A stretch of 64,000 nt of DNA from Aestuariivita sp. (GTDB lineage Bacteria > Pseudomonadota > Alphaproteobacteria > Rhodobacterales > Rhodobacteraceae), in NCBI GenBank assembly GCA_026709985.1, contig JAPORY010000078.1:1-64000 (forward strand). The letters run 5' to 3'. The notes beneath the pieces are model-generated. The model was not told where the DNA came from. It saw nothing but the letters and a program-made list of their open reading frames with translations, and searched no databases. The stretch's first letter is position 1. Each line of letters opens with the position of its first letter. A program made the position numbers and the translations under genes. This document shows, piece after piece, positions 8,102 through 62,198 of this stretch.

Positions 8102-8757
8102 TACTCCATCATATTGCCCTTTCGCGATCGTTTCGGGTCCTTTTTACGCTCGAAGAGTTGGGTCTAGAGGCTGATTTGAAGTATTATTCAGTCTTAGACG
8201 GTTCTTTGCGATCTCCTGAGTTCTTACAGATTTCACCAGCGGGACGGGTACCAGCGCTTGAGTTTGATGATGGTCGGGTGATGTTTGAGAGCGGGCCAAT
8301 CTTGCAGTTTTTGGCTGAAACTCATCCTGAGGCGAACTTGGGTCGGCCGGTTGATCATAGTGAACGGGCGCGTTTTCTTGAAATGCTCTCCTTGTCAGAA
8401 ACAATTTCGTGCGAACTCGAAATGTTGAATATGCAGCATCTTTTTCTGCGCGAGCCAAAAGACGCATCAGCGACAGTCATTAAACTCAATACGCTGCGCT
8501 TTCGAGCGGGGTTAAGAGCAATTGACGCTATTTTGGCAAACCAAGATTGGTTGTGCGAGAGTGGTTTTTCGGCGGCTGATATAATGATGAGCTTCAATAT
8601 TTTGGTTGCCCCCTACTTTCTTGAAATGAGTGAACTACCCAATATCAATCGGTATCGTGAGCAATTGGAAGAACGAGCTGCATTTCGTCGAGCCCGCGCT
8701 AAGGATGGCGAACAAAAGTTCTATGATCGTGACTTCTATCCCGTCCCAACCTCGTGA
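8098..8757 (+). CDS. Glutathione S-transferase-like protein
   Basis: A 219-residue cytosolic GST-fold protein. The N-terminal thioredoxin-like domain shows the cis-Pro segment GRVPALEFDDG near 47-57 followed by the glutathione-contacting ESGPILQFLAE near 63-74. The all-helical C-terminal domain contains WLCESGFSAADIMMSFNI, which matches the family N-capping/hydrophobic staple region. Ser10 of LSRSFRV is a candidate catalytic serine. It sits between mccA and the HMG-CoA lyase gene with overlaps on both sides, so it is part of the liu transcript. Its reaction is unknown; protection from, or handling of, reactive enoyl-CoA thioesters would be a reasonable idea but is only inference. Confidence 0.82.
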   Translation: MILHHIALSRSFRVLFTLEELGLEADLKYYSVLDGSLRSPEFLQISPAGRVPALEFDDGRVMFESGPILQFLAETHPEANLGRPVDHSERARFLEMLSLSETISCELEMLNMQHLFLREPKDASATVIKLNTLRFRAGLRAIDAILANQDWLCESGFSAADIMMSFNILVAPYFLEMSELPNINRYREQLEERAAFRRARAKDGEQKFYDRDFYPVPTS

Positions 8758-9635
8758 TGGATACGTTTGAAATTTTTGAAGTTGGCCCACGCGATGGGCT
8801 GCAAAACGAAACTACTTCGATTGCTCTAGCGGATAAAGTTCGTTTCATTGATTATTTGAGCGCGGCTGGTTTTCGGCGGATCGAGTGTGGCAGCTTTGTC
8901 AATCCGACTCTCGTGCCGCAAATGGCCGATAGCGCTGCTGTTTTTGCTGCGATTAGTCGTCGCCCTGCAATTTCATACGCGGCTCTCACGCCGAATATGC
9001 AGGGATTTAAGGCAGCAGTTGCGGCGAGGGTCGATGAAGTCGCAATCTTTGCCTCGGCGAGCGAGGGTTTTTCGCAAAAGAATATCAATGCGACGATTGA
9101 GGAAAGCTTTGAGCGATTCAAGCCCGTTATAGAGGCGGCAAAGCGTTATGGAATTGTGGTTCGAGGTTATGTCTCTTGTGTCACGGATTGCCCGTATGAC
9201 GGTTGCATTGACCCCGAACAAGCAGCCAAAGTTGCAGCGCGACTGTACAGTATGGGTTGCTATGAGATCTCGTTGGGCGATACAATCGGCAAGGGTACGC
9301 CAGAACGGATTTCACGCATGATTGCGACCGTTGCCAAACAGGTTCCAATCGAAAAACTTGCGGGTCACTATCATGACACTGATGGGCAGGCGTTGGCAAA
9401 TATCAGTGCCTCAGTTGCTTTGGGAATGCGGGTTTTCGATGCCTCTGTTGGTGGATTAGGGGGGTGTCCCTTTGCTCCCGGCGCCAAGGGGAATGTTGCA
9501 ACGGAGGCGGCGGTGCGGCATTTGCTCGCGGCCGGTTTTGAGTCCGACTTGGATCTTGAAGTGCTTGATCAGAGTGCAGATTTTGCGCGAAAGCTATGTG
9601 GCAAACCCAACGGCAGCCCCGTTTCTTTGGAATAA
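8757..9635 (+). CDS. mvaB: Hydroxymethylglutaryl-CoA lyase
   Basis: A 292-residue DRE-TIM-barrel lyase that splits HMG-CoA into acetyl-CoA and acetoacetate, the last step of leucine catabolism. The N-terminal VGPRDGLQNE motif carries the substrate/metal-binding Arg-Asp. GHYHDTDGQALAN supplies metal-binding histidines, and the signature SVGGLGGCPFAPGAKGN contains the catalytic cysteine. Family length is normal. I chose ATG 8757, which overlaps the previous TGA by one base; a GTG one codon earlier is the other option. Confidence 0.94.
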   Translation: MDTFEIFEVGPRDGLQNETTSIALADKVRFIDYLSAAGFRRIECGSFVNPTLVPQMADSAAVFAAISRRPAISYAALTPNMQGFKAAVAARVDEVAIFASASEGFSQKNINATIEESFERFKPVIEAAKRYGIVVRGYVSCVTDCPYDGCIDPEQAAKVAARLYSMGCYEISLGDTIGKGTPERISRMIATVAKQVPIEKLAGHYHDTDGQALANISASVALGMRVFDASVGGLGGCPFAPGAKGNVATEAAVRHLLAAGFESDLDLEVLDQSADFARKLCGKPNGSPVSLE

Positions 9636-47726: not shown

Positions 47727-47836
47727 GCCTGATCACATCCCTCCCGATTCATAAGCGCATTAAGTTTGATGAGAATAGCAATGCAATGACATCAGACACA
47801 ACAAACTTACGTCAATTTTATGAGAAGAAAGAACCT

Positions 47837-49219
47837 ATGATCAAAGCAAACGATAAGAATAAATCATTTCGCAGAGTCATTCCTATCCTTTCAATTAGTG
47901 CCGCGCTACTTTTTTTGGGGTTCGTAACGCCAGCACACGCAACTGAGCCCGACGAGATGTCATTCATTCTCAACTCATTTAGCTTCCTCATATGGGGGGT
48001 GCTCGTCATGTGGATGTGCGCCGGGTTCACAATGTTAGAATCGGGCTGTGTACGAACAAAAAATGTCTCGGTGATTTGCCTTAAGAATATCGGCCTGTTT
48101 TCGATTGCGAGCTTGGCGTATTACACCGTTGGCTACAATGTTATGTACGTTGACGTCGAGGCTGGCGGGTTTTTTGGCTCCTTCAAATTGTTCTATGGTT
48201 CAAATGAAGCCGAACTTGCCTTGATTGAGGGATTGACGGAAGACACCGCTGCCGTTGTCGAGGGTGGCTATTCGACGATGTCAGATTGGTTTTTCCAAAT
48301 GGTTTTCGTCGCAACGACGGCCTCAATTATTTCTGGCACTCTCGCGGAGCGCGTGCGCTTGGCGCCGTTCTTTGTGTTTGTCGCTGGCTTAACAGCGTTC
48401 ATTTATCCGACGGTCGGTGCTTGGCACTGGGGCGGGGGTTGGCTGGCTGAAATGGGCTTCCAAGACTTTGCCGGATCAACGATTGTGCACTCTACTGGCG
48501 GCTGGGCAGCGCTCGCTGGTGCAATCTTACTTGGTGCACGTGGTGGACGCTTCCAAGCCGACGGAACGGTCAGGTCAATGCCCCCCTCAAATGTGCCAAT
48601 CGTTACCCTTGGTGTCTTTATTCTATGGATGGGTTGGTTCGGCTTCAATGGTGGCTCGCAACTCGCTTTGAGTTCAGCCCTTGATTTAGTTGCGATCAGC
48701 AACATTCTGGCCAATACCAACATCGCAGCGGCGGCGGGCGTCATTATGTCGCTGATTGTCTCCCGCCCCTTGCTCGGAAGAATCGATTTGATGGCGACCC
48801 TAAACGGGGCAATTGCAGGATTGGTTGCGATCACCGCTGGTCCCGATATTGTTAACCATCAGTGGGCAATTTTCATCGGAGCAATAGGGGGGCTGATTTC
48901 AGTTCTGGGAATCAAACTCCTTGAAGTCAGCAAAATCGACGATGTTGTCGGAGCGATTCCGGCACACTTGTTTGCCGGCGTCTGGGGTACCCTAGCGGTT
49001 TGCATCGCAGCAGGGGGCGACATCATTGTGCAAGCCATCGGTATCGCTGCAATCGGGGTATTCGTATTCGGGACATCAATCATCCTATGGTTTGTGATCG
49101 ACAAACTCATCGGACTAAGAGTTTCGCCGCAAGCCGAGGCACTGGGCCAAGATGTCACGGAGCTAGGGATCGAAGCTTATCCTGAGTTTGTCGCCGTACC
49201 AGAGGATATTGACATCTAA
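47837..49219 (+). CDS. amt: Ammonium transporter
   Basis: A 460-residue Amt with a signal-like first hydrophobic segment ending AHATEPDE and eleven further helices. The twin histidines of the pore are in STIVHSTGGWAALAG and GAIPAHLFAGVWGTLA, and the conserved TASIISGTLAERV loop is present. No glnK gene is adjacent. ATG 47837 has a purine-rich site upstream and precedes the signal; the frame is open 17 codons further. It lies just before glnE, giving a nitrogen-supply pair. Confidence 0.94.
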   Translation: MIKANDKNKSFRRVIPILSISAALLFLGFVTPAHATEPDEMSFILNSFSFLIWGVLVMWMCAGFTMLESGCVRTKNVSVICLKNIGLFSIASLAYYTVGYNVMYVDVEAGGFFGSFKLFYGSNEAELALIEGLTEDTAAVVEGGYSTMSDWFFQMVFVATTASIISGTLAERVRLAPFFVFVAGLTAFIYPTVGAWHWGGGWLAEMGFQDFAGSTIVHSTGGWAALAGAILLGARGGRFQADGTVRSMPPSNVPIVTLGVFILWMGWFGFNGGSQLALSSALDLVAISNILANTNIAAAAGVIMSLIVSRPLLGRIDLMATLNGAIAGLVAITAGPDIVNHQWAIFIGAIGGLISVLGIKLLEVSKIDDVVGAIPAHLFAGVWGTLAVCIAAGGDIIVQAIGIAAIGVFVFGTSIILWFVIDKLIGLRVSPQAEALGQDVTELGIEAYPEFVAVPEDIDI

Positions 49220-49250
49220 ACGAGGACCGTAATCTTTCGGAGGGTAGACG

Positions 49251-52100
49251 ATGGGAAGGAGTTTATGTAACAGTATTTCTCGCCATCCGATCCCCTTCGA
49301 TTCTGATCAAGCGGTCAATGCTTGCTCTGATCTGCCGTCAGAACTGGCAGCTGACGCCATTGCCGATCTCTTGCGGGGAACGGCAGGGTCAAGCCCGTTC
49401 CTTGCCAAGTTGATATCGGCTCACTCTGAGTGGCTTATCAAAGTCTGTCAAACCCCCTCTGACGCTGTCATTAATGATCTGCTTGCAGACGTTAACCAGC
49501 ATGTTGAGGGCGCCGACTGGTCCGACTTACTATCGCACTTGCGGCGGGCAAGAGCCCGAGCGGCCCTATTTATCGCACTCTGCGATCTCGGCGGAGCTTG
49601 GGAGTTCGTTGACATTACAGGTCGATTATCCGACTTGGCTGACGGATTGACGTCAGCAGCATTGCGCTGGATCGTTGCTAAAGAAATTCGACGCGGCAAA
49701 CTTCCTGGGGTTGATGAGTCAGACCTCGACACGGCGGCAGGCCTGTTTATCATCGCGATGGGCAAAATGGGAGCACAGGAACTCAATTATTCGTCCGACA
49801 TTGATCTCATATGTTTGTTCGACCAAGATAAATTTGAAGCCACTGCTCGCGGTGACGCTCGCGCTCGGTTCATTCATGTCATTCGAACACTGGTTAAGGC
49901 ATTATCCGATTGGACAGCGGATGGATATGTATTTCGAACCGACTTGCGCTTGCGTCCGACCCCGTCAACGACTCCGGTCTGCATGGCTATGGCTGCGGCC
50001 GAAAATTATTACGCCTCAATTGGCCGCACGTGGGAACGAGCAGCGCACATAAAGGCGCGAACCGCCGCCGGTGACCTACAGGCCGGTCGTCGGTATTTGA
50101 AAAACCTAGCGCCGTTCATTTGGCGCGAACCGTTAGACTTTCCGGCCATCGAAGATATTGAGGAGATACTGCGAAAGATTCGTGTGAAGAAGGGACATTT
50201 TTCGTTGGCGGCTATTCCGGGCTGCGACATCAAGCTCAACCCCGGTGGCATCCGAGAAATCGAACTTTTTGTGCAGACCCGTCAACTCATAACGGCGGGG
50301 CGCTTGCCGAGCCTTCGCGAGCCGACAACGCTTGGTGCTCTCGCGGCGCTTCGAGATGAAGGAATCATCACCACAACGATGTGCTCATCGCTATCAGAGA
50401 TTTACGTCGCCCACCGAACGATTGAGCATCGATTACAAATGATTGATGATAAGCAAACGCAAACAATTCCCAAAGACGAAAATGCGAGAAGCCGTGTTGC
50501 CGCCCTAGACGGGTACGGTGATCGAGAGGTGTGGGAAAATGAGATTGCGCAACGACTTGCGGCGGTGAATCAAAATACGCAGGAGTTCTTTGATGCTAGC
50601 GCTCGTGTCCCGACAGAAAGGGAGAAATTTGTTCTTGATCAGCCGACATTGTCGGCCTTAGGCTTTGAAAATCCAGAGACGGTACTGCAGATAATCCGTC
50701 GTTGGCGGGACGGCAGCGTCGCGGCCATGGCATCCGAAAATGTGCAACGACTTTACGAGTCGATTGAGGCGGATATTATAAAATTGTTGGCGAAGGCGGA
50801 CGCAGCAGACGCCGCAGTTGATGCCTTTGATCGATTTCTCAGTGATTTAACTAACGGACGACATGTCTTTTCGTTACTGAAGGCAAACCGACACTTGATT
50901 GACGACGTCATTGAAATCCTCGTAACGGCTCCGAGGCTCGTCAATCTCTTGGGGCGCTGGCCGCAAACTCTAGATGCTCATCTTGACGAAGCCTTTTTTC
51001 AGCAATTTCCATCGCAGGAATGGCTCGCAGCAGATCTGCATATTCGAATCGGTGAGACTGGGCATTATGAACGGATTTTAGAAATCGTGAGAATTTGGGC
51101 CCGAGAACTCCGATTTCGTGTCTCGGTTCATGTTCTGAAGGGCCTGCTTGATGAAGTCAGTGCGGGACAGGCCTTTACTGCAATTGCGGAAGCAACTCTT
51201 GAGGCGTTGACCCCAATCGTTATCACAGAATTTACCAAACGTTACGGTCAATCGCTAGGGCGAGGGATCGGTATTGTCGGCATGGGTAAACTCGGTACCC
51301 GCGAGATGACGGCGCGTTCGGATCTTGATCTAATTGTGATTTATGATGATCGTCACTGTGCTGATGAAGAAGAACGGCGCTCTGCAGCGGGATATTTTGG
51401 GCGGCTGACGCGGAATTTGATCACAGCTTTTACTGCAGATACGGCAAAAGGGCGGTTGTACAATGTCGACTTGCGTCGGCGGCCTTCAGGGAATCGTGGG
51501 CCGATCGCGGTTTCATTAACGACATTTGAAGATCATCAAATAAAGCAAGCTGGAGTTTGGGAGCATCTTGCATTGATGCGCGGTCGTGTTGTATTTGGTG
51601 AGCGCGAACTGCGTCAGGAGATTGAACAGATCATTGATCAGGCTTTGTCAAGCCGACAACAAGACGAGCAAGTGATGTCGGAAGCTCGCACTCTGCGCGA
51701 ACTCAGAATTGCGACCCATGAAGAGGCGAGTCCGAACCCGTGGTTGCTCATGTCGAACACCGGCGGACTGCGGGAGATTGATTTTCTCGCCCAGACCAAC
51801 GGGCTCTATCGGGGAGTGGGTTTTGGCTGTTCAGCCCGAGAAATTTTGCCAAAGATTGCCGGGACAAAACGGCTGAGTTCAGAAGATATTGATCATTTAG
51901 AACGGGCGATCGCGATTCAAACACGTCTGCAACAGATTGATTGCGTCGCACGCGAAAACGATTACAATAACAGTAACGAGCGACTGCGTCGCGTTATGGC
52001 GTTGGCGACGGGAGAAGAAGATTATGACATGCTCTCCAAAACCCTTAAAACTGTGCAAGCAAAAGTTGCGGGGATCTGTAGTACCGCTTTTTTCCCTTGA
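49251..52100 (+). CDS. glnE: Bifunctional glutamine synthetase adenylyltransferase/adenylyl-removing enzyme
   Basis: A 949-residue protein with two nucleotidyltransferase domains. The N-terminal adenylyl-removing domain contains GKMGAQELNYSSDIDLICLF near 166-185 and the C-terminal adenylylating domain contains GKLGTREMTARSDLDLIVIY near 678-697, each with the SDxDL metal-binding acids. It tunes glutamine synthetase in response to PII. The ATG has GGAGGG upstream. Family length is normal. Confidence 0.96.
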   Translation: MGRSLCNSISRHPIPFDSDQAVNACSDLPSELAADAIADLLRGTAGSSPFLAKLISAHSEWLIKVCQTPSDAVINDLLADVNQHVEGADWSDLLSHLRRARARAALFIALCDLGGAWEFVDITGRLSDLADGLTSAALRWIVAKEIRRGKLPGVDESDLDTAAGLFIIAMGKMGAQELNYSSDIDLICLFDQDKFEATARGDARARFIHVIRTLVKALSDWTADGYVFRTDLRLRPTPSTTPVCMAMAAAENYYASIGRTWERAAHIKARTAAGDLQAGRRYLKNLAPFIWREPLDFPAIEDIEEILRKIRVKKGHFSLAAIPGCDIKLNPGGIREIELFVQTRQLITAGRLPSLREPTTLGALAALRDEGIITTTMCSSLSEIYVAHRTIEHRLQMIDDKQTQTIPKDENARSRVAALDGYGDREVWENEIAQRLAAVNQNTQEFFDASARVPTEREKFVLDQPTLSALGFENPETVLQIIRRWRDGSVAAMASENVQRLYESIEADIIKLLAKADAADAAVDAFDRFLSDLTNGRHVFSLLKANRHLIDDVIEILVTAPRLVNLLGRWPQTLDAHLDEAFFQQFPSQEWLAADLHIRIGETGHYERILEIVRIWARELRFRVSVHVLKGLLDEVSAGQAFTAIAEATLEALTPIVITEFTKRYGQSLGRGIGIVGMGKLGTREMTARSDLDLIVIYDDRHCADEEERRSAAGYFGRLTRNLITAFTADTAKGRLYNVDLRRRPSGNRGPIAVSLTTFEDHQIKQAGVWEHLALMRGRVVFGERELRQEIEQIIDQALSSRQQDEQVMSEARTLRELRIATHEEASPNPWLLMSNTGGLREIDFLAQTNGLYRGVGFGCSAREILPKIAGTKRLSSEDIDHLERAIAIQTRLQQIDCVARENDYNNSNERLRRVMALATGEEDYDMLSKTLKTVQAKVAGICSTAFFP

Positions 52101-52358: not shown

Positions 52359-52697
52359 ATGGAATTGAGAGTTTCGAAACATAATGCCGTAACAATTGCT
52401 GAGGTTGACGGTCGCATTGATGGCATGACCGCCAAGGAATTTGAAGAAAAGATGGCAGAGGCGATACCCGAAGGGGGTGGGCCGATGGTGTGCGACCTGT
52501 CGCACGTATCCTACGTCAGTAGCGCGGGATTGCGCGCTATTCTTGTAATTGCCAAGCGATTCTCGAAAGATGGAAATTTTTTCTCTGTGTGCGGACATAG
52601 CGGCCCAGTAGCGGAAGTTTTACGAATCTCGGGATTCGAGAAAATCATCCCAATGCACGAAAGTCGCGCTGACGCCGTGGAAAAAGCCGAAGGCTAA
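52359..52697 (+). CDS. STAS anti-sigma-factor antagonist (RsbV/SpoIIAA-like)
   Basis: A 112-residue single STAS domain. The core CDLSHVSYVSSAGLRAILVI near 45-64 carries the serine that RsbW-type kinases phosphorylate; by alignment with SpoIIAA Ser58 this is Ser55 (SSAG). In partner switching, the unphosphorylated form binds and frees a target from its ATPase partner. The next gene, 14 bases on, is an RsbW-like ATPase, so this pair is the likely switching couple. It is the first gene of the cluster running to 60638. Confidence 0.92.
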   Translation: MELRVSKHNAVTIAEVDGRIDGMTAKEFEEKMAEAIPEGGGPMVCDLSHVSYVSSAGLRAILVIAKRFSKDGNFFSVCGHSGPVAEVLRISGFEKIIPMHESRADAVEKAEG

Positions 52698-52711
52698 TTG
52701 GAGCTGGCTCC

Positions 52712-53146
52712 ATGGTGGACATGGCAAAAAAGCGGCAATTAGAACTCCCCGCTAAAGCCGAGAATTTAGAAAAAATTTTTGACTGGATTGAGGCATCATG
52801 TGCCGCATATGATCCGGCCAAACAGTTTATGTTTGGCATGCAGCTTGTCGTGGAAGAGCTCTTTCTCAATGTGCTGAACCATTCAGCAGAAACGGCCAGT
52901 GCGGACGGTCGGGTCAGTCTTACCTTTAGCCCACAACCGAACGGAATCATGTTGGTATTTTCTGACGATGGCTCACCATTCGATCCCCTATCAGAGGCGC
53001 CGGAGCCAGATACAGATGCGGCAATTGAAGACCGAAAGATTGGTGGGCTGGGGCTCAAGCTAGTGCGCGAAATCCCTAGTCAATTATCCTACAATCGCAC
53101 CGATTGGGGTAATCAATTGACCCTGATATTTAATGAGGGAGAATAA
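52712..53146 (+). CDS. RsbW-like GHKL ATPase (anti-sigma-type serine kinase)
   Basis: A 144-residue HATPase_c protein of the anti-sigma regulatory type. The N-box is VVEELFLNVLNHS near 46-58, the G1 region ISFSDDG-like LVFSDDGSPFDP, and the glycine box KIGGLGLKLVREI near 112-124. Such proteins phosphorylate STAS antagonists and bind either the antagonist or a target. An Asp/Glu/Pro-rich segment (APEPDTDAAIEDR) precedes the glycine box and is shared with the ATPase domain of the large fusion protein downstream. No partner sigma factor of the SigB/SigF type is encoded here. Confidence 0.9.
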   Translation: MVDMAKKRQLELPAKAENLEKIFDWIEASCAAYDPAKQFMFGMQLVVEELFLNVLNHSAETASADGRVSLTFSPQPNGIMLVFSDDGSPFDPLSEAPEPDTDAAIEDRKIGGLGLKLVREIPSQLSYNRTDWGNQLTLIFNEGE

Positions 53147-53513
53147 CCGGCAATTGAGAAAATTGGCCTCGGTTCCTTTTCTAGTCACGAAGTCTTGATG
53201 GTACCGATAGCAGTACTGTTCAAGTCGAGATGCGGTTTTAACGATCTTACGGTTCTTGTCAAAATCGCTGCAAGGATGAAAGCGTGATCGGTACCGAATT
53301 GGGCGAACCGGTCGAAAAATGTGTGAGAAATGAGAAGGCTGCAGAGAAGCTTACAGTTGGTGCAACGACAAACAGTCAGAACTACAGCAGTGCCTAAGAC
53401 GATAAAGGAAAGCGTGCGCAACGGGACAAGATTGCGTTTTACGCCGAAGTATCAATTTGTCCTACAAGGTAGGCCGTGCAATCGTTATTCCGTATCGCCA
53501 TAGAGGGAAGATT
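53147..53513. other. Intergenic gap inside the partner-switching cluster
   Basis: No gene is recognised; frames are short and without motifs. The gap may hold a second promoter for the fusion gene. The fusion start is preceded by AGAGGGAAG just before 53514. Confidence 0.4.
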
Positions 53514-56500
53514 ATGTCAGAAGTAGAACATCTCGAACTCACGGCGGAGACCAAGAATCTTGAGGTTCTTGTTGAATGGATAGAGGAATTTTGCGCAGAA
53601 CATTGGGAAGCTGCTGCTCACGAATATAGAATTCAACTCGTTGTTGAGGAGCTTTTTCTCAACCTTATCCACCACGTTGAGGATGAGGAAGGCTTAGACG
53701 ACACCGTTACTTTTCAATTGAAAAGAACTCCGCAGGGGGCGGAGTTGACAATAGTGTCGTCAGGACCAGAATTTGATCCGTTTGACGACGCGCCAGAACC
53801 CGACCTTGATTCCCCAGTGGATGAAAGAACGGTCGGCGGTCTCGGGATAGTGATTGTTCGAGAACTTACCGATGATCAGAGCTACAAGCGAGTTAGCGGC
53901 AAGAATCAGCTGATCTTGTCATTCGGAAAGGAAACATCGGAACAGTCTGGTTCTGAGAATAATCATGAACATAGTTCTTCGGTTGGCGACAGCGAAGACC
54001 AAACGAACCTTTCTGCAGCGGCTGCGCCTTCAGAGAGTTGTCGTCCGAGAAGTATCACGTTCCAAATTCTTGCGGTCTTACTAGTTTTGGTGACGGCAAG
54101 CGTCGCATCAACGGCTGTCTTGAATTATATTAAGTTCGAGAGAATTCTAACCAATGCGACGGCCGCTCGGTATGATCCGGTTCTTCGTGAGGTCGATCGC
54201 AGTATCGGCGAGAGTCTTCTGCGTGGGTTAACGCTATCCTCAACTCAAACGACACAAACTTTTCTTGAGCGATCAACGCAGCAGTTCGGACAAAACTTCT
54301 CGCTCACTGTTCACGATTTAGACGGCGCTACCTTGTTTCATTCTGGTGAGGCGGTTCTAGCACCCGACCCCGTGCCAGCGATTGGCGAGATTATGAGTGG
54401 TTCTTCGCAACCGGATCAATATGTGCGCCACGCGGCAATTACCCAGAATGGAGTTATTGTAGGCACAATTACGCTTTCTCATCCGACAACGGAAGCCTCT
54501 TGGGATATTGAAGAGGTCAGTGATGAACTCGAAACGGCGGCGATTATTTCACTGGTTCCATTTTTGCCCCTTTTGCTTGTGTTAACCATATTGATGATTG
54601 GTCGAATCGAGGGTCGATTGCACGCAGGAATGTTGGCCGTTGAACGCGCGTCCGAGAAGTTGACGGCGCAAAATCCTGTTGAGGGGATTTGGCGCGTTCA
54701 ACGCTTCCTAGGAATTGTTCGAAAGGGGCAAGATTGGACGCGTGAAATGACCGGGTCTCGGCCTATTCTCTTAATTTTGTTACTGGGTTTGCTCGCCTTC
54801 CCGTTCTTAATTTTTGGTTTTTTATCGGTTCGGGTTCTTGAGCCAAAATACTTGAACGAGTTTGAAACTCAGACCATTACCGCCGTGACCGGGGTGCAGA
54901 GGCGAGTTGATTATGCGGTCTCAGCTTTTGGTGGTTTATCAACCTTGCGGGACGTTGAGAGAGTTTTAGATCGTGCGCGATCGTCGGCGCCTGGTATGAG
55001 TTTTTTTGCGCTAACCGATCCAGATGGTGACATACTGCATCTTTCTGCAGATTTTCCGCTTGAGGTTCGTAGTCAAATTTCAATGTTGTCGGCTGCGTCT
55101 ACGGCTGCACCGGTAACACCCTTCGAACAGACATTCTTTGATCTAACGGGAATTGCTTTGAATTCGCCAGTTGCAATGGCGGAAGATGGCGATAGTGACT
55201 TGTTAATTACTAATCTTCCTATCACTGGAGAAAACGGTGATACAATTGGTCTCTTGTATGCAGGTGTCGACATTGAAACGTTAAATGCGGTCAAGCGAGA
55301 TATATGGATTGACACCGGGGTTGTGATATTCGCGGTAATATTGATCGCAACTGAGCTCTTGATCCTTGTTTTCTCGGTGCTTCTCATTCGGCCTGCTTGG
55401 GCGATTGACTTTCTCATGGCGCGCTTGCGGCACCGAGATTTGCGCTTTACCCTGCCGGCTTTTGGCGGTGGCAGCGCCAAGCGGGTGATTCAAAGGATTA
55501 ATGAGGCGATCAGTCAGGCGGCCGCATCTGCCCGATCAACGCTTTGTTTAATTTTGCCGAGTTCAAAAGGGCCTGATACCGTTCACATACCCGCCCTTAG
55601 TCATGTGCGCTTGCCGTTATTTCTATTTTTTCTCGCAGAAGCTCTACTGCGACCAATATTGCCGCAATTTCTGGGTACGTTTGCACCAACGGAGAGCGAT
55701 TCCAACTTCTGGACTGGAATCATCATGGCTGGTTTCATGGCGACCTCTCTTTTTTCTGTGTTGGTCGGTTCCTTTCTTTCTGAGCGAACCGGTGGGCCGC
55801 GCCTCGTATTCTTCGTTGGCGCTGTTTGCTCTGGCTTCGGCATGTTTGGGCATCTCATCGCAAATGACTTTTATAGCATATTGGGTTCGCGCATGCTGGC
55901 AGGGCTCGGTTACGGACTGGTTTATGCAGCAGCTCAAGTCCACGTGGCAAAACACACTGATCCGATTCGACGCACAACGGGCTTTTCTTCGTTTTTGGCG
56001 GTAATCGTTGCGGCGGAGGTTTGTGGTCCTGCGATCGGCGGGATAGTCGCAGACCGTTTCGGCCTCTTCCCGGCATTTTCTACAGCATTTGCTCTGATCG
56101 TTTCGTCTGGGGCCTTATGCTTGTTATTACTGCCAAGAATCTCGCCGAGTATAACTAATCCGAATATGAGGCCAGAGTTGAGCCGAACGGAGGCCGCTTC
56201 TAATCAAGCGTTACAGATGACCGGTTGGCGTTCACAATTAGAGATGGCCCGGGAAATCCTGTCAAACAAACGTTTCTCTGTTGCGATTATATGTTTTGCT
56301 ATTCCAGCAAAGGCTCTTCTGACCGGTGGGTTGTTTTTGTTAGTACCGCTGATCGTCTTTGCGAGTGGCGGTGGTGCGGCCGAGAGTGCGCGAGTTCTCA
56401 TGGGGTATGGTCTCGCGATATTACTGTTGTTGATCTTTGTTGCTCCACTTGCGGATCGCTGGCGAGGATTTAGTCTCTGGGTAGCGGCTGGTAGTATGGT

Positions 56501-56891
56501 TGCAGCGGTTGGTTTCATTGTTCCTAACGGCTGGATATTGTTGGGTGACGGTGGATTACTATTCTTGTTTATTGCCACGGTCTTATTTGGTATTGGTCAG
56601 ACACTATCGATCCCCACGCAAATCAGTTTTTTGCTCGAGTCGACTGATCGACAGACTATGCGCTTTGGCTCAGGTCCCGTTTTAGGTCTTTTTCGCTTTC
56701 TGGAGCGATTGGGTTCGTTTGCAGGGCCATTGATTGCGGGGGTGCTGTTGTTGCACTATTCCCCAGACATTGCTTTGAAATGGATGGCCTTGGGCGCTGT
56801 TTTGCTCTCGGCTTTGGGACTGAGTTGGTTCCTAGCATTTGGTCAACAAGACGAGGAGAGCCAGATTAATGCTTTACTTATCGAGACGTGA
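53514..56891 (+). CDS. RsbW-like ATPase fused to dual sensor and MFS transporter
   Basis: One uninterrupted 1125-residue frame. Residues 1-140 are an RsbW-like GHKL ATPase (N-box VVEELFLNLIHH at 43-54; glycine box TVGGLGIVIVREL from 106). A Ser/Asn/Glu-rich linker runs from 141 to 180. A membrane helix at about 181-203 is followed by a first extracytoplasmic region (204-340), then a helix pair (341-363 and 417-440) around a HAMP-like cytoplasmic part. A second extracytoplasmic, Cache-like region (441-600) contains FFALTDPDGDILHLSADFPL, and a helix at 601-625 leads to a cytoplasmic linker. From about 700 to 1110 there is a complete twelve-helix MFS module, with loop-2-like LVGSFLSERTGGPRLVF and GSRMLAGLGYGLVYAAAQ. 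I know of no named family with this order. It could be a transporter gated by, or gating, a partner switch. Start ATG 53514 is supported by a ribosome site. Confidence 0.85.
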   Translation: MSEVEHLELTAETKNLEVLVEWIEEFCAEHWEAAAHEYRIQLVVEELFLNLIHHVEDEEGLDDTVTFQLKRTPQGAELTIVSSGPEFDPFDDAPEPDLDSPVDERTVGGLGIVIVRELTDDQSYKRVSGKNQLILSFGKETSEQSGSENNHEHSSSVGDSEDQTNLSAAAAPSESCRPRSITFQILAVLLVLVTASVASTAVLNYIKFERILTNATAARYDPVLREVDRSIGESLLRGLTLSSTQTTQTFLERSTQQFGQNFSLTVHDLDGATLFHSGEAVLAPDPVPAIGEIMSGSSQPDQYVRHAAITQNGVIVGTITLSHPTTEASWDIEEVSDELETAAIISLVPFLPLLLVLTILMIGRIEGRLHAGMLAVERASEKLTAQNPVEGIWRVQRFLGIVRKGQDWTREMTGSRPILLILLLGLLAFPFLIFGFLSVRVLEPKYLNEFETQTITAVTGVQRRVDYAVSAFGGLSTLRDVERVLDRARSSAPGMSFFALTDPDGDILHLSADFPLEVRSQISMLSAASTAAPVTPFEQTFFDLTGIALNSPVAMAEDGDSDLLITNLPITGENGDTIGLLYAGVDIETLNAVKRDIWIDTGVVIFAVILIATELLILVFSVLLIRPAWAIDFLMARLRHRDLRFTLPAFGGGSAKRVIQRINEAISQAAASARSTLCLILPSSKGPDTVHIPALSHVRLPLFLFFLAEALLRPILPQFLGTFAPTESDSNFWTGIIMAGFMATSLFSVLVGSFLSERTGGPRLVFFVGAVCSGFGMFGHLIANDFYSILGSRMLAGLGYGLVYAAAQVHVAKHTDPIRRTTGFSSFLAVIVAAEVCGPAIGGIVADRFGLFPAFSTAFALIVSSGALCLLLLPRISPSITNPNMRPELSRTEAASNQALQMTGWRSQLEMAREILSNKRFSVAIICFAIPAKALLTGGLFLLVPLIVFASGGGAAESARVLMGYGLAILLLLIFVAPLADRWRGFSLWVAAGSMVAAVGFIVPNGWILLGDGGLLFLFIATVLFGIGQTLSIPTQISFLLESTDRQTMRFGSGPVLGLFRFLERLGSFAGPLIAGVLLLHYSPDIALKWMALGAVLLSALGLSWFLAFGQQDEESQINALLIET

Positions 56892-57891
56892 ACTGTGTGG
56901 GGGATTGGTTGCAGCCACAGTCCTCAATCCAATCGGGGTATCTGCCACGACATCAAAGACGATATTCATGGTCTTGTGGCGTGGCGAGACAGAGGTTGAG
57001 AAAGGTTTTCGCGGTCACTTTGAACAGCTGGATCAGCCCGTCGACATCATTGTCCGTTCGGTTGAGCGTGACGCTGACAAGGTGAAAGAAATTGTGGAAG
57101 AGATCAAGAGTGTGGGGCCGGACCTCGTATATTCGTGGGGAACTTCGGTCACTTTGGCAATTGCAGGTCGAGATCCAGACTTAAGTGAGGGACCCGATGA
57201 TTATCCGCCACAGATCACTGACATTCCCGTTCTCTTTACGATGGTTTCGCAGCCAATCAAGTCGAGAATAATAAAGGAGTTCGGGCCAACAGGACGCAAT
57301 GTGACGGGAGTCAGTCATTTGGTCCCTCTAGAAACCCAGTTTGAAGCGATGCAGGCTTATATGCCCGTAGATCGGATCTCAATCATATTCACCCCGACAG
57401 AGACAAACTCAATGATCGCGGCAGATCGGCTTGTCGAGATTGGTCAACGGATGAATGTGCGCGTTGACCAGTTTCCGGTACCCAATACGACTGACGGTAG
57501 CCCCGACCCTGAAGCATTGCCGAGTTTGATTTCAGAGGCATCGGCCTCTGGAGCGCAGTTTCTGTATCTGGGGCCTGATAGCTTTCTTGGTCAGTATGCG
57601 CAGCGAGTTACTGACTTGGCTAACGCTCTGCAATTACCGTCTTTTGCCTCGGTTGAACGGATGTTGTCAGCCTCGGACGCACTCTATGGATTGGTCGCTC
57701 GTTATCAGAAAGTTGGACAATTTACCGCAACAAAAGCGGAACGCATATTGTTTGGCAATGAGGATCCGGCCAATATACCGGTAGAGCTCTTGCCCGAATT
57801 TTCTTATTTGATAAGGTCTGACGTCGCGCGTAAGTTGAACATTTATCCAAGTTTAGCACTCATGGACTATGCTGAGACCATTGAACCGTGA
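56869..57891 (+). CDS. ABC_sub_bind-type periplasmic binding protein, no cognate permease
   Basis: A 340-residue periplasmic-binding-fold protein of the ABC_sub_bind (TrpX-like) family. It starts with a twin-arginine-like signal (LSRRELCGGLVAATVL, cleavage near GVSA) and shows family features VGPDLVYSWGTSVTLAIAGR, IPVLFTMVSQPIKS, GPTGRNVTGVSHLVPLETQF and ASGAQFLYLGPDSFLG. The ATG at 56869 lies inside the end of the fusion gene with GAGGAGAG upstream, so the two are co-translated. No ABC permease or ATPase is nearby, so it may present a ligand to the sensor regions of the fusion or phosphatase instead. Ligand unknown. Confidence 0.88.
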   Translation: MLYLSRRELCGGLVAATVLNPIGVSATTSKTIFMVLWRGETEVEKGFRGHFEQLDQPVDIIVRSVERDADKVKEIVEEIKSVGPDLVYSWGTSVTLAIAGRDPDLSEGPDDYPPQITDIPVLFTMVSQPIKSRIIKEFGPTGRNVTGVSHLVPLETQFEAMQAYMPVDRISIIFTPTETNSMIAADRLVEIGQRMNVRVDQFPVPNTTDGSPDPEALPSLISEASASGAQFLYLGPDSFLGQYAQRVTDLANALQLPSFASVERMLSASDALYGLVARYQKVGQFTATKAERILFGNEDPANIPVELLPEFSYLIRSDVARKLNIYPSLALMDYAETIEP

Positions 57892-58038
57892 GAAGAGTTC
57901 GAGAGCAACACTTCGACTGCGTCCTTGGCAGTAACGTTGGCCCCACTAGAACCTTTGGTCTTCGCCCGCTAGACATTAAACTGGTCGTTTTGGGTCAAGC
58001 GAGATTGTGTTCATCATGTCAATATTCTGCTTTCGGTA

Positions 58039-58770
58039 TTGCAAGTGAACGAAGCTGAGTTTCAAAGTTTGCGACGGTGGCTTCATGGTGATCGAGAAGA
58101 CAGAGTCTTTTGCCGGCAAGGCATCGAAGTGCGTATGGGTAGAATTACAGATATTCCGGCGTTGGTCGAAATAAATACTCGTGCGATTAAAGCACTGGGC
58201 AGTGAGGGGTTATTTATGCCGATGTCAGAAACCTTTTTCAGGGACGTTATTCCGGCACGGTTATCATTTGTATTGGAGCGTGAGAGGCGAATTGTAGGGT
58301 ATAGTATTGCTGTACCGGTTGGGGCGTCGCATCCAGTTTTTTGGGATACCGATCGAAGTAAGATTGGGTTATTGTTTGGTACAGCATTGGATCGAGGTAT
58401 GTGGCACAAAGGCTGGCAGAGATGGCTTGTCAATTTACGCCGGCGGGCATTTGAGGCTTTGGGTTTTGATGAGGTTCAATGCACCGTATCGCCCTTTAAT
58501 GTACCGTCGTTGTTTAATTTAATCGAAGCCGAGTTTGAGATTATCGGGCTCAAGTCCCTGCTTGACGGTCATCCGCGATTTATTGTTCGGCATCTTTTCG
58601 GGGGTCAACACCGCGGCCCTCCAGCTGATCTTCAGCAACAACGACAAGAATTATCTTCGGATCTGGCACCTCATGCCGCGTTCTTGCAGCAAGGATATCG
58701 CGGGGTCAAAATTCACCGAAGCGAGCCGGTGATGATTTCCTATTCTAAGCCCAAGGATGATCCAAAATGA
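58039..58770 (+). CDS. GNAT-like acetyltransferase protein
   Basis: A 243-residue protein whose first ~190 residues fit the GNAT fold: GRITDIPALVEINTRAIKAL for the first strand-helix, LSFVLERERRIVGYSIAVPV for the middle strands, and RRRAFEALGFDEVQCTVSPF and NVPSLFNLIEAEFEIIGLKS for the acetyl-CoA and C-terminal region. The usual acetyl-CoA loop (R/QxxGxG/A) is weak (LFGTALDRGMWHKG), so catalysis is not assured. The C-terminal ~50 residues are Gln-rich and unlike the family. It overlaps the phosphatase gene by 4 bases. The start is TTG 58039 or GTG 58045. Its job in the cluster is unknown; it might modify or sense a cluster component. Confidence 0.65.
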   Translation: MQVNEAEFQSLRRWLHGDREDRVFCRQGIEVRMGRITDIPALVEINTRAIKALGSEGLFMPMSETFFRDVIPARLSFVLERERRIVGYSIAVPVGASHPVFWDTDRSKIGLLFGTALDRGMWHKGWQRWLVNLRRRAFEALGFDEVQCTVSPFNVPSLFNLIEAEFEIIGLKSLLDGHPRFIVRHLFGGQHRGPPADLQQQRQELSSDLAPHAAFLQQGYRGVKIHRSEPVMISYSKPKDDPK

Positions 58771-60638
58771 TTTTTTCTCGGCGTCAGCAGAGGAGCCTTC
58801 ATCAAGACATTAGTATTGCCGCCGGACTTGCAATTCTGGCGGTGTCACTTGTTCTAATTGTTTCAAGTGAGATCCGTAATACAGCCCGCGTCCAGCAAGA
58901 TCGGGTTGCTATGATGTCGCTGCACGAAGGTTTGCTGCAAACGATGCTTGATCTTCAGCGAACCGAGCTAGAAGACTTGGCGCGGCAAATTGAAGCAGAT
59001 CGGCAGGTGATTGCCGCCTTTCGTGGCGAAGGAGATAAGACAGAACTTGAACGAGTACTCGATAGTTCACGGGATGGTCTGCCACTGGCGGTGGTTTTGG
59101 TTGATGAGCAACGGCAGATTATGGCGGCGTCAAGTGATGTTTCAGCCCTTGTTGATGAGTCTTTTTTTCAGCGGCCGCTGAACGCACTCGCAAGAACAGA
59201 TCTTCTGATCGGCCCCGGTGGGGCACCAGCACTCATGCATCACGCACCGGTTCGACACGGGACGCAGGTTGCTGGCATGATTCATATTCTATTACCAATC
59301 GCAAATGTCGTTGACGACTATTTTCCAGGGCTTGCCGGATTGATGTTTCGATCTTTTGGTGGAGCGCTGACACCTCTAGAAGGTGCTTCTATCAGTAGTT
59401 CGCATTCCAACACGCGGGATACGATCACGATTGTTCCGATTGCATCGGATAAACGCTTGGAAGCGGCATTTGTTCCCATACGACTTGGAAAAATGCCATA
59501 TATTGGCGATTTGATTTTCTTGCGTGATGTTACCCAAGCCATTCAGCAAGAGGAGCTTTTGTCGAGTTTAACCTTCGTCGCTGTGATCGTTCTCATTCTT
59601 ATTTCTCTTGGATTGTTATCGCGGTCGCTTCGTCTGGGATTTCGACCTTTAGAAGCCGTGGTTCAACTTCTTGAGGCGATGTCTGAAGGAAACCGAAATC
59701 TGCGCTTTCGGCGCGCCGCGCTAGTAAATGCGAATGCAAATTCAGGCCGCGACAAAGCGTTTGGTGTTGAGGTTCCGCATCGTGAAATTGGCTCTCTTTT
59801 GAGAGCCGTCGAGAGCTTCAGGAGCGGCCTTGATGCTCAGCGGTCATTGCTTGTCGTGCGCGAGCAGTTGGAAAACGCCAAACGAATTCAACAGTCACTC
59901 TTACCCCAAAGTTTTGACCAACATATGGGGCTAGATATTTTCGGGCGTATGCGGCCAGCCCTTGAGGTCGCTGGTGACTTTTTTGATATTTTTCGGTTGA
60001 ATGATGACAAGCTGGCAGTTGTTATTGCCGATGTATCTGGCAAAGGTTTGGCGCCGGCTTTATTCGCTTCTCAGGCTAGCGCACTTTTTCGGGCGCAATT
60101 TGCTCAGTACCATGATCCGGCCGAAGCGATTCGGGTAGCCAACAAGGCATTATGTGAGCGAAATCCAGAGGACATGTTTTTGACATGTATTCTCGCGGTG
60201 ATCACACCCGATACGCAAGAGGTCTCTTTTGTTAATGCCGGGCACTGTCCGCCTATTGTCATTCGTGCCGATGGGACCATCCATCAGGTGGAGACGGAGC
60301 CAGAGCCAATCGTAGGAATTATTCCTGATCTTGAGTGGTCGGAGCACAAGTTCATTCTGAAGGAGGGTGAAAGCTGTTTGCTATACAGTGATGGTTTCGA
60401 CGAGGCGCAAAAGGAAGATGGGGAAATGCTCGGAACCGATCGTGTGCTTGAAATGTTCCGTGAGGCGAGTGTCAAGAATTCGGTTGTGAGTGAGAAAGTT
60501 GCGTTATCTCTGTTTAACGAAATTGATGAATTTTCGGCGGGAGCCCCACAAGCTGATGACATTACGATCATCACAATACGCACCCTAAAAAAGGGTCGAA
60601 CCAAGCGGGGTAGGGCGCAAGCAACGGCCAAGAATTAG
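58767..60638 (+). CDS. Membrane-bound SpoIIE/RsbU-type PP2C phosphatase
   Basis: A 623-residue sensor phosphatase. A first membrane helix at about 15-34, a periplasmic sensor region to about 265, a second helix near 268-288 (FVAVIVLILISLGLL), a HAMP-like linker to ~365, a coiled segment (LENAKRIQQSLLPQSF), then a PP2C domain with the metal-binding residues in VAGDFFDIF, VIADVSGKGLAPALFASQAS, FVNAGHCPPIVI, LLYSDGFDEAQ and APQADDITIITI. All acids needed for Mn-dependent catalysis are seen. It would dephosphorylate the STAS protein in response to a periplasmic signal and so flip the partner switch. Last gene of the cluster. Confidence 0.93.
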   Translation: MIFSRRQQRSLHQDISIAAGLAILAVSLVLIVSSEIRNTARVQQDRVAMMSLHEGLLQTMLDLQRTELEDLARQIEADRQVIAAFRGEGDKTELERVLDSSRDGLPLAVVLVDEQRQIMAASSDVSALVDESFFQRPLNALARTDLLIGPGGAPALMHHAPVRHGTQVAGMIHILLPIANVVDDYFPGLAGLMFRSFGGALTPLEGASISSSHSNTRDTITIVPIASDKRLEAAFVPIRLGKMPYIGDLIFLRDVTQAIQQEELLSSLTFVAVIVLILISLGLLSRSLRLGFRPLEAVVQLLEAMSEGNRNLRFRRAALVNANANSGRDKAFGVEVPHREIGSLLRAVESFRSGLDAQRSLLVVREQLENAKRIQQSLLPQSFDQHMGLDIFGRMRPALEVAGDFFDIFRLNDDKLAVVIADVSGKGLAPALFASQASALFRAQFAQYHDPAEAIRVANKALCERNPEDMFLTCILAVITPDTQEVSFVNAGHCPPIVIRADGTIHQVETEPEPIVGIIPDLEWSEHKFILKEGESCLLYSDGFDEAQKEDGEMLGTDRVLEMFREASVKNSVVSEKVALSLFNEIDEFSAGAPQADDITIITIRTLKKGRTKRGRAQATAKN

Positions 60639-60905: not shown

Positions 60906-61565
60906 CTAAATGCGGCGGAAAACCTGAGCTAATTTGGATGACAGTGACTTGAACCGCAAAGCGCCTTCGGTTGCCGTTAAGCAAATGCAATTTGAACTAA
61001 TGTCTGCGATTGGTAAGTGCGTGCAGTGTTGATCAACTATTGAGATATCTCCGCGCTGCAAGGTTGACGGATGATCAATTAATGCCCCCTGTAAAACTAA
61101 AGTCATCTCAAGACCTTCGTGACCATGCTCTGGCACTGCGACCCCGGCGGGAACCTTCAGAAGACGGACGGTGGCAGGGCCGCACGTTTTCACCACAACT
61201 TGCTCTACTCCCAGACCAACTGACTTCCAAGGTACCGCAGCAATATCAGTACCGACATACTCTTGAAGGGGGATCGGTAATAGGCTTTCAGATTCCTTTG
61301 GGGCCGGTTGTTCGCGAATTGGACCGCCGCGAATGAGTGCCAACGTGGAGATTAATAGATTGTCATCCGACTCTAGGCGCACGGGCTCAATTGAATTCAA
61401 AAGCGCACCGCCAACGGCATCAAAGCCCTCTACAGATGCGCGACTCTCATCACACATCGACAAATGGCTGGCGACCACGATACTTAAGGCTTCGGGGAGG
61501 GTACCCGCTGCGTAGGCCATGGCTACTTTGTCGGGTAAGCAGTGAGTTGTTGGCATAACTGTCAT
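60906..61565 (-). CDS. chrR: ChrR-like cupin anti-sigma factor
   Basis: A 219-residue anti-sigma factor with an N-terminal zinc-binding domain and a C-terminal cupin. N-terminal His8, His34 and Cys38 match three ChrR zinc ligands, but the fourth position in HLSMCDES is Ser41 instead of Cys. The cupin has VPEHGHEGLEMTLVLQGALI and ends CICLTATEGALRF, as in Rhodobacter ChrR. ChrR holds RpoE inactive until singlet oxygen appears. It overlaps the sigma-factor stop as ATGA. The Ser substitution could weaken zinc binding. Confidence 0.92.
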   Translation of the reverse strand: MTVMPTTHCLPDKVAMAYAAGTLPEALSIVVASHLSMCDESRASVEGFDAVGGALLNSIEPVRLESDDNLLISTLALIRGGPIREQPAPKESESLLPIPLQEYVGTDIAAVPWKSVGLGVEQVVVKTCGPATVRLLKVPAGVAVPEHGHEGLEMTLVLQGALIDHPSTLQRGDISIVDQHCTHLPIADISSNCICLTATEGALRFKSLSSKLAQVFRRI

Positions 61566-62107
61566 TTGATTTGGTGACGCAATCGTTCTAAGGCTAATCG
61601 TATTCGTGATTTGATGGTTCCGAGTGGCAATCCGGTGACTTCGGAAATTTCGTTATGGCTCATCTCGCCGAAATAGGCGCGCTCAATCATCTCTAGCTGC
61701 GCTTTAGGAAGCGACTTGAGGGCTTCTCCCAATTTAGCGCAGTCTTGTTGAAATTCAATTAACTCTTCTTGACTCGCCGCCTCTTTGTATCTTCTGTCGA
61801 GTTCCTCTGGCTCAGGGCGACGTTGCTTTCTCTGAATGTCGATCCGACGGTTTCGAGCGATTGTATAAATCCAGGTTGAGACGGATGCCCGCGAGGGATC
61901 AAATTGTTTTGCCTTATGCCATACTGTTGCCATTACATCTTGAACACATTCTTCTGCGAGGGTTGAATCGGTACCACCACGCATCAAGAAAGCCTTGATT
62001 CGCGGACCAAAGTAATGAAAGAGTTCGGCAAAGGCCGCCTCGTCACCGTACTCGCTAATGCGTTGTACATGCTCGGTCCAATCCACGCCCACGATACTAT
62101 TCCTCAT
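61562..62107 (-). CDS. rpoE: ECF sigma factor, RpoE/ECF11-like
   Basis: A ~181-residue group IV sigma factor. Region 2 contains DEAAFAELFHYFGPRIKAFL and AEECVQDVMATVWHKAKQFD, with RASVSTWIYTIARNRRIDI as region 2.4-like; region 4 contains LPKAQLEMIERAYFGEMSHN and EVTGLPLGTIKSRIRLALER. It resembles the singlet-oxygen sigma factor of Rhodobacter. ATG 62107 gives the family N-terminus; an ATG at 62158 in the same frame is possible. Neither has a strong ribosome site. It lies upstream of chrR and behind a matching promoter at 62199-62228. Confidence 0.9.
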   Translation of the reverse strand: MRNSIVGVDWTEHVQRISEYGDEAAFAELFHYFGPRIKAFLMRGGTDSTLAEECVQDVMATVWHKAKQFDPSRASVSTWIYTIARNRRIDIQRKQRRPEPEELDRRYKEAASQEELIEFQQDCAKLGEALKSLPKAQLEMIERAYFGEMSHNEISEVTGLPLGTIKSRIRLALERLRHQIK

Positions 62108-62198
62108 GATGACCGTGTCTGCAGTACACTCTTTCGTGGCTAAGATTCTCAAAAGCATCAAGGCCGAAGAGTAGTATAGCAGTCGGGTTCATCTTTTC

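Follow-up and report, generated by a model that had tools for sequence, protein, structure and literature searches.

A partner-switching gene cluster associated with a predicted transporter and a periplasmic binding protein in Aestuariivita sp.

Composition of the gene cluster

The window analysed here is a stretch of 64,000 nucleotides from the marine bacterium Aestuariivita sp. (family Rhodobacteraceae; assembly GCA_026709985.1, contig JAPORY010000078.1). Between positions 52359 and 60638, it contains a cluster of six intact genes, all on the plus strand, that encode a STAS-domain protein, an RsbW-like ATPase, a fusion of an RsbW-like domain with two sensor units and a major facilitator superfamily (MFS) domain, a binding protein of the family PF04392, a GNAT-like protein and a membrane SpoIIE phosphatase (Table 1). 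This gene content, order and strand had been proposed by a first-pass annotation made from the sequence alone, and are confirmed by the gene calls and the Pfam matches. The same holds for the description of the central protein as a transporter with its own RsbW-like domain, since PF13581 and PF07690 both match in one chain, and for the absence of a sigma factor or a response regulator inside the cluster. The tight overlaps reported for the last four genes were retrieved only in part: the fusion and binding-protein genes overlap by 23 bp and the GNAT and phosphatase genes by 4 bp, whereas a gap of 154 bp separates the binding-protein gene from the GNAT gene.

Judged by sequence motifs, all three parts of an RsbU/RsbV/RsbW-type set are represented. 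The STAS protein carries the phosphorylatable serine in the motif YVSSAGLR, and this residue is conserved in 47 of the 47 aligned relatives. The stand-alone RsbW retains the N box (ELFLN), the G1 box (DDG) and the G2 box (GGLG), and is likely the kinase of the STAS protein. Finally, the metal-binding Asp of the PP2C domain is intact in all the aligned phosphatases (51 sequences).

According to the map of transmembrane (TM) segments and to the structure model, the fusion would comprise a cytoplasmic RsbW-like domain, two TM-periplasmic-TM units (sens1 and sens2) and a complete MFS domain. Neither sens1 nor sens2 of the window matches a Cache model, and sens2 has no Pfam match at all; among 31 relatives, dCache_1 was matched in three and sCache_3_2 in two. 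The MFS domain displays a profile match to NorA (5e-11) and fold matches to SLC37A4, NorA and VMAT2 with Z scores of 33-36, and the rows of a fold search with the whole fusion were filled by MFS structures. In the model, this domain is a complete transporter fold, and its transport function is predicted. The start codon ATG 53517 is likelier than TTG 53457. The spacer of 370 bp (53147-53516) between the stand-alone RsbW gene and the fusion has counterparts of about 325 and 740 bp in two other fusion-bearing genomes, with no conservation of the sequence. Promoter and terminator scans gave a signal no better than that of shuffled sequence.

The binding protein matches the structures 6hni, 3lkv and 3lft by sequence and is only distantly TrpX-like (91.6 bits, for a cut-off of 390). 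Neither an ABC permease nor an ABC ATPase lies beside it in the cluster. The GNAT-like protein of the window has no Pfam match of its own, but its relatives exceed the PF00583 cut-off; the modelled structure has a GNAT fold, from which an acetyltransferase activity is predicted.

Table 1. Coordinates of the genes and domains of the cluster, with the matches and models that support them
Feature	Position in the window	Strand	Support
STAS-domain protein (RsbV/SpoIIAA-like)	52359..52697	+	PF01740 1.3e-18; TIGR00377 over cut-off
Stand-alone RsbW-like ATPase	52712..53146	+	PF13581 1.7e-18
Fusion of 1124 aa: RsbW-like domain, two membrane sensor units, MFS domain	53517..56891	+	model mean pLDDT 86.9, pTM 0.79
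Fused RsbW-like domain with Ser in place of the G1 Asp (probable pseudokinase)	53517..53936	+	PF13581 1.4e-16
sens1, first TM-periplasmic-TM sensor unit, Cache-like	54066..54599	+	TM at 184-202 and 343-361; alpha/beta periplasmic unit in model
sens2, second TM-periplasmic-TM sensor unit, Cache-like by model topology	54765..55388	+	TM at 417-435 and 606-624
MFS transporter domain of the fusion	55584..56891	+	PF07690 1.8e-25
Periplasmic solute-binding protein, PF04392 family	56869..57891	+	PF04392 3.4e-22
GNAT-fold acetyltransferase-like protein	58045..58770	+	model pLDDT 91.5; Foldseek to Ard1 (Ard1/Naa10 acetyltransferases) 1.9e-9
Membrane sensor phosphatase, TM-periplasmic-TM and SpoIIE PP2C domain (60003-60584)	58767..60638	+	PF07228 2.4e-48

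Related loci, fusions and exchangeable outputs

The first-pass annotation had suggested a search for the co-occurrence of these families. Species genomes were surveyed with an alignment of the binding protein alone, so that the neighbouring genes played no part in the selection, and 79 loci were kept. The neighbours were then scored with profiles built from the window and its relatives. An MFS gene was found in 77 of the 79 loci and a Cache-like membrane protein in nearly all of them. The other genes are SpoIIE (45 loci), STAS (40), RsbW (39), GNAT (47), class III cyclase (15) and Ser/Thr kinase (10); as the set is uneven in relatedness, with several near-identical metagenome-assembled genomes (MAGs), these counts are not independent events. 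The loci are spread over the Alpha-, Beta- and Gammaproteobacteria, in more than 20 genera and with varied gene orders, and the carriers include cultured isolates (for example Pseudooceanicola, Azorhizobium, Albimonas and Mesorhizobium). SpoIIE domains are common in the phylum: the genomes of the sample listed have between 0 and 12 of them. We estimate that one would fall by chance within 20 kb in about 1% of the cases for genomes with one or two copies and in less than 10% for the richest genomes, against the 57% observed. The association of these genes is more than chance, because they are found side by side again in further genomes. The co-occurrence anticipated by the first-pass annotation is thus found, the MFS, STAS, RsbW and phosphatase genes recurring with the binding protein in many genera. 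Conversely, that annotation would have been contradicted by homologous clusters that always carry a sigma factor and in which the fusion is not conserved with the STAS and phosphatase genes; the transporter genes are in fact conserved with the STAS, RsbW and phosphatase genes, and a sigma factor occurs in one of 91 related loci.

Several of the components are fused, in different combinations. RsbW-sens1 fusions were detected in seven loci, sens1-sens2-MFS fusions in about ten, and the fusion of all four parts in three (the window, L034 and L049). Since these fusions join them, RsbW, sens1 and the MFS protein would be expected to sit in one complex. In L037, the genes STAS, RsbW-sens1, sens2-MFS, binding protein, GNAT and PP2C follow each other closely, and RsbW is present only once. 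The four-part fusion is intact in three genomes, with identities of 53-60%; these three independent intact fusions led us to reject an assembly artefact or a pseudogene. In the tree of the RsbW domains, the three fused copies form one clade (support 99/97) among the Rhodobacteraceae. On the evidence of this tree, the four-part fusion is a derived, recent and local state of a three-genome clade that followed a duplication of RsbW. A scan of the species genomes with the whole fusion as query found nothing, and a plasmid search gave only partial matches at the MFS level. Within the family of the window the system is rare: close relatives of sens2-MFS were detected in about five of the 198 genomes searched.

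The signalling enzymes that accompany the transporter genes vary. In the Rhodocyclaceae loci L078, L086, L100 and L101, a Ser/Thr kinase-dCache-HAMP protein starts at most 4 bp from the stop of the binding protein, and immediately upstream of sens1, L102 and L111 carry a dCache-HAMP cyclase. The loci L054-L056 contain PP2C, STAS and a Hanks-type Ser/Thr kinase (12443-14545 in L054) without RsbW, and this kinase is possibly a replacement of the STAS kinase. In many alphaproteobacterial loci, a PAS or other class III cyclase adjoins PP2C or RsbW. L081 has a fusion of a class III cyclase with RsbW (7041-8780) beside STAS, where a nucleotide cyclase may be directly controlled by partner switching. 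Because a kinase or a cyclase replaces the phosphatase in tight operons of relatives, the combination of sensor, sensor-MFS protein and binding protein looks, from its gene neighbourhoods, like a sensory module with interchangeable effectors. The separation of the parts in other genomes and the pairing of the unit with other signalling enzymes suggest that it is a sensory module and not solely a regulated transporter. Other transporters are also encountered: the RsbW and STAS genes are separated by a Na/Pi cotransporter gene in L082 (13437-15092), L095 and L104 (13584-15209), and by an NCS2-type permease gene in L050 (4840-6636) and L073 (15742-17496). These arrangements hint that other transporters may be partners of STAS/RsbW, and that transport may be a recurrent client.

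Some loci and flanking genes deserve separate mention. L030 and L032, from the same family as the window, contain another partner-switching set linked to a binding protein; here PP2C and RsbW are accompanied by a Peripla_BP_6 protein and a histidine kinase with a HAMP domain. In L047, a MAG labelled Gammaproteobacteria, the RsbW of the cluster falls among the Rhodobacteraceae, which reflects either gene transfer or a binning error. The Rhodobacteraceae MAG L025 (= L035) has a remnant, with sens2-MFS in two overlapping frames and the binding protein, and with neither phosphatase nor STAS nearby. In the window, amt and glnE (47786-52100) directly precede the cluster. One or both of these genes also flank it in L037, L038, L040-L043, L045, L048 and L049, with an order that varies, and this adjacency corresponds either to a shared location or to a nitrogen link.

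Proposed mechanism and rival explanations

On balance, we favour the view that the cluster is a transporter-coupled sensory system which sets the phosphorylation of the STAS protein, and that in this lineage STAS would in turn act on the transporter. The binding protein would capture a periplasmic solute, and the two membrane sensor units together with the MFS protein would constitute a receptor/transporter complex that reads the captured solute; the constant linkage and the repeated fusions point to such a complex. The signal would then be passed on to the single STAS protein, whose phosphorylation would be set by the stand-alone RsbW as kinase and by the sensor phosphatase, as the intact catalytic residues suggest. 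The output enzyme would differ among relatives. In this lineage, RsbW would have been duplicated and one copy joined to the transporter with loss of its ATP site, so that the fused domain probably serves as the docking site of STAS at the transporter. The phosphorylation state of STAS might finally gate the transporter or report on it, with control in either direction; this action on the transporter, deduced from the gene architecture, is the least certain step.

The inventory of the genome, which is 97.7% complete, bears on the targets of such a switch. One SpoIIE domain and one STAS domain were detected, both in the cluster. The two convincing RsbW-type ATPases are also located there. Two weaker PF13581 matches occur on another contig; they are probably histidine kinases, because they lie in longer open frames and one directly precedes a response-regulator match. 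The sigma region-2 profile gave four matches in the genome, one RpoD-like, two RpoH-like and one extracytoplasmic function (ECF) sigma factor, with no factor of the SigB/SigF type. No class III cyclase was found in the genome. The genome therefore lacks a SigB/SigF-type client, as well as any additional STAS or SpoIIE that could serve as a partner. The strongest rival explanation is nevertheless that the partner switch acts on an unlinked target. The transporter unit would then be only the sensor input, the stand-alone RsbW or the free STAS would have a distant regulator as its target, in the manner proposed for RbaV of Rhodobacter capsulatus, and the fused domain would only hold STAS near the membrane phosphatase. 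The retention of a stand-alone RsbW with intact motifs beside the fusion speaks for it, as do the response regulators of the genome, which could be clients, and the RbaVWY system, which affects gene expression although no sigma factor is known for it (PMC3999984). However, the genome offers the single SpoIIE and STAS and no SigB/SigF-type factor described above, and in relatives that have a single RsbW, its fusion to sens1 is frequent. We regard this explanation as less probable than the favoured one.

The first-pass annotation had assumed that both ATPase domains set the phosphorylation of STAS. In this version, the fused domain would be a second active kinase that phosphorylates STAS in response to transport, and the domain of the window does keep the N-box Glu and Asn and the G2 motif GGLG. 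In GHKL ATPases, the Asp of the G1 box contacts the adenine base. This Asp (motif DxG), whose column aligns with the Asp of RsbW structures, is conserved in 44 of the 46 RsbW domains outside the three four-part fusions and lost in all three fused copies, where it is replaced by Ser in the window and by Thr and Ala in the two relatives. The fused domain of L034 also lacks the N-box Asn and the G2 glycines. A comparison of the fused domain sequence with solved structures returned nothing useful. The assumption of two kinases is therefore unsupported, and we consider it improbable: because the nucleotide-binding Asp is lost in three of three fused copies, a role as docking pseudokinase is, as far as these residues tell, more likely for the fused domain than that of a second kinase. 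One observation weighs against the pseudokinase assignment, since the stand-alone RsbW of L049 also has Thr at this position, and the residue is perhaps not decisive.

A control of sigma factors has little to recommend it. Absent from the first-pass annotation, a gene pair encoding the single ECF sigma factor detected in the genome and a ChrR-type (cupin) anti-sigma factor (60906-62161, minus strand) starts 267 bp downstream of the phosphatase gene and is convergent with it. The cluster could thus be supposed to control this pair or an RpoH copy. However, the ECF gene already has its own anti-sigma factor, and the pair looks like an ordinary RpoE-ChrR pair. Moreover, the one sigma factor detected in the 91 related loci is FliA-like and belongs to a locus without partner-switching genes (L097); no ECF gene was detected in these loci, with single-sequence phmmer searches that may miss divergent ECF factors. 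A link to the neighbouring ECF factor is unlikely, and sigma control as a whole very improbable. Control of the SigB type is rejected, given the absence of a SigB/SigF-type factor from the genome and the single sigma factor of the related loci.

Finally, a solute transporter that merely neighbours an ordinary RsbV/W/U set is hardly credible: in about 14 loci, several of them on short contigs, the MFS and binding-protein genes do occur while all the scored signalling genes are absent from the stretch of DNA available, which also counts against the transporter-coupled system, but the association extends over more than 20 genera and three classes in varied orders, far above the chance estimated for SpoIIE, and the parts have been fused repeatedly.

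Relation to known systems

The cluster shares with RsbU/RsbV/RsbW and SpoIIE/SpoIIAA/SpoIIAB a PP2C phosphatase, a STAS protein with a phosphorylatable serine and an RsbW-type ATPase. It differs by the absence of a SigB/SigF-type sigma factor from the genome, by the linked transporter, binding protein and GNAT genes, and by a second RsbW domain that forms one chain with the transporter. RbaV/RbaW/RbaY of Rhodobacter capsulatus is likewise a partner-switching set of the Rhodobacterales for which no sigma target is known (PMC3999984). However, the REC input domain of RbaY and its unlinked gene set this system apart, neither transporter nor binding protein is present, and the output is gene expression (PMC3999984). 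SiaABCD of Pseudomonas aeruginosa, which responds to carbon availability, also combines a membrane PP2C sensor, a kinase and a STAS-like switch without a sigma client (PMC7647112), but its output is the diguanylate cyclase SiaD, it includes neither MFS nor binding protein, and both the kinase and the phosphosite (Thr68) are different (PMC7647112). In UhpB/UhpC (PMC7607045) and the SLC5/STAC kinases such as CbrA (PMC7096432), a transporter-type protein acts as receptor or is fused to a signalling ATPase; these systems have a histidine kinase/response regulator output, with no STAS or PP2C and no separate binding protein. Finally, TRAP and TTT systems are secondary transporters that also rely on a periplasmic binding protein (PMC8276074), whereas here the membrane component is an MFS protein with sensor units and the binding protein belongs to PF04392. 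No one known system among RbaVWY, SiaABCD, UhpC and CbrA combines these features. In agreement with the first-pass annotation, which knew of no system with this make-up, no description of the gene set was found in the open-licence literature searched.

The known targets of partner switching are sigma factors and a few others; in the present case, it is a transporter complex that recurs as partner of the switching genes. We put forward tentatively that the cluster belongs to an undescribed and widespread class of binding-protein-dependent MFS receptor/transporters with exchangeable outputs, where, in this clade, STAS would dock on a pseudo-RsbW domain fused to the MFS protein and gate transport through its phosphorylation state, in place of controlling a sigma factor. 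The gene set suggests a kind of secondary transporter that uses a binding protein outside TRAP and TTT. It also suggests a modular receptor whose output is swapped among phosphatase/STAS, Ser/Thr kinase and nucleotide cyclase. With such a gene set, a link between solute capture and serine phosphorylation in Proteobacteria becomes testable.

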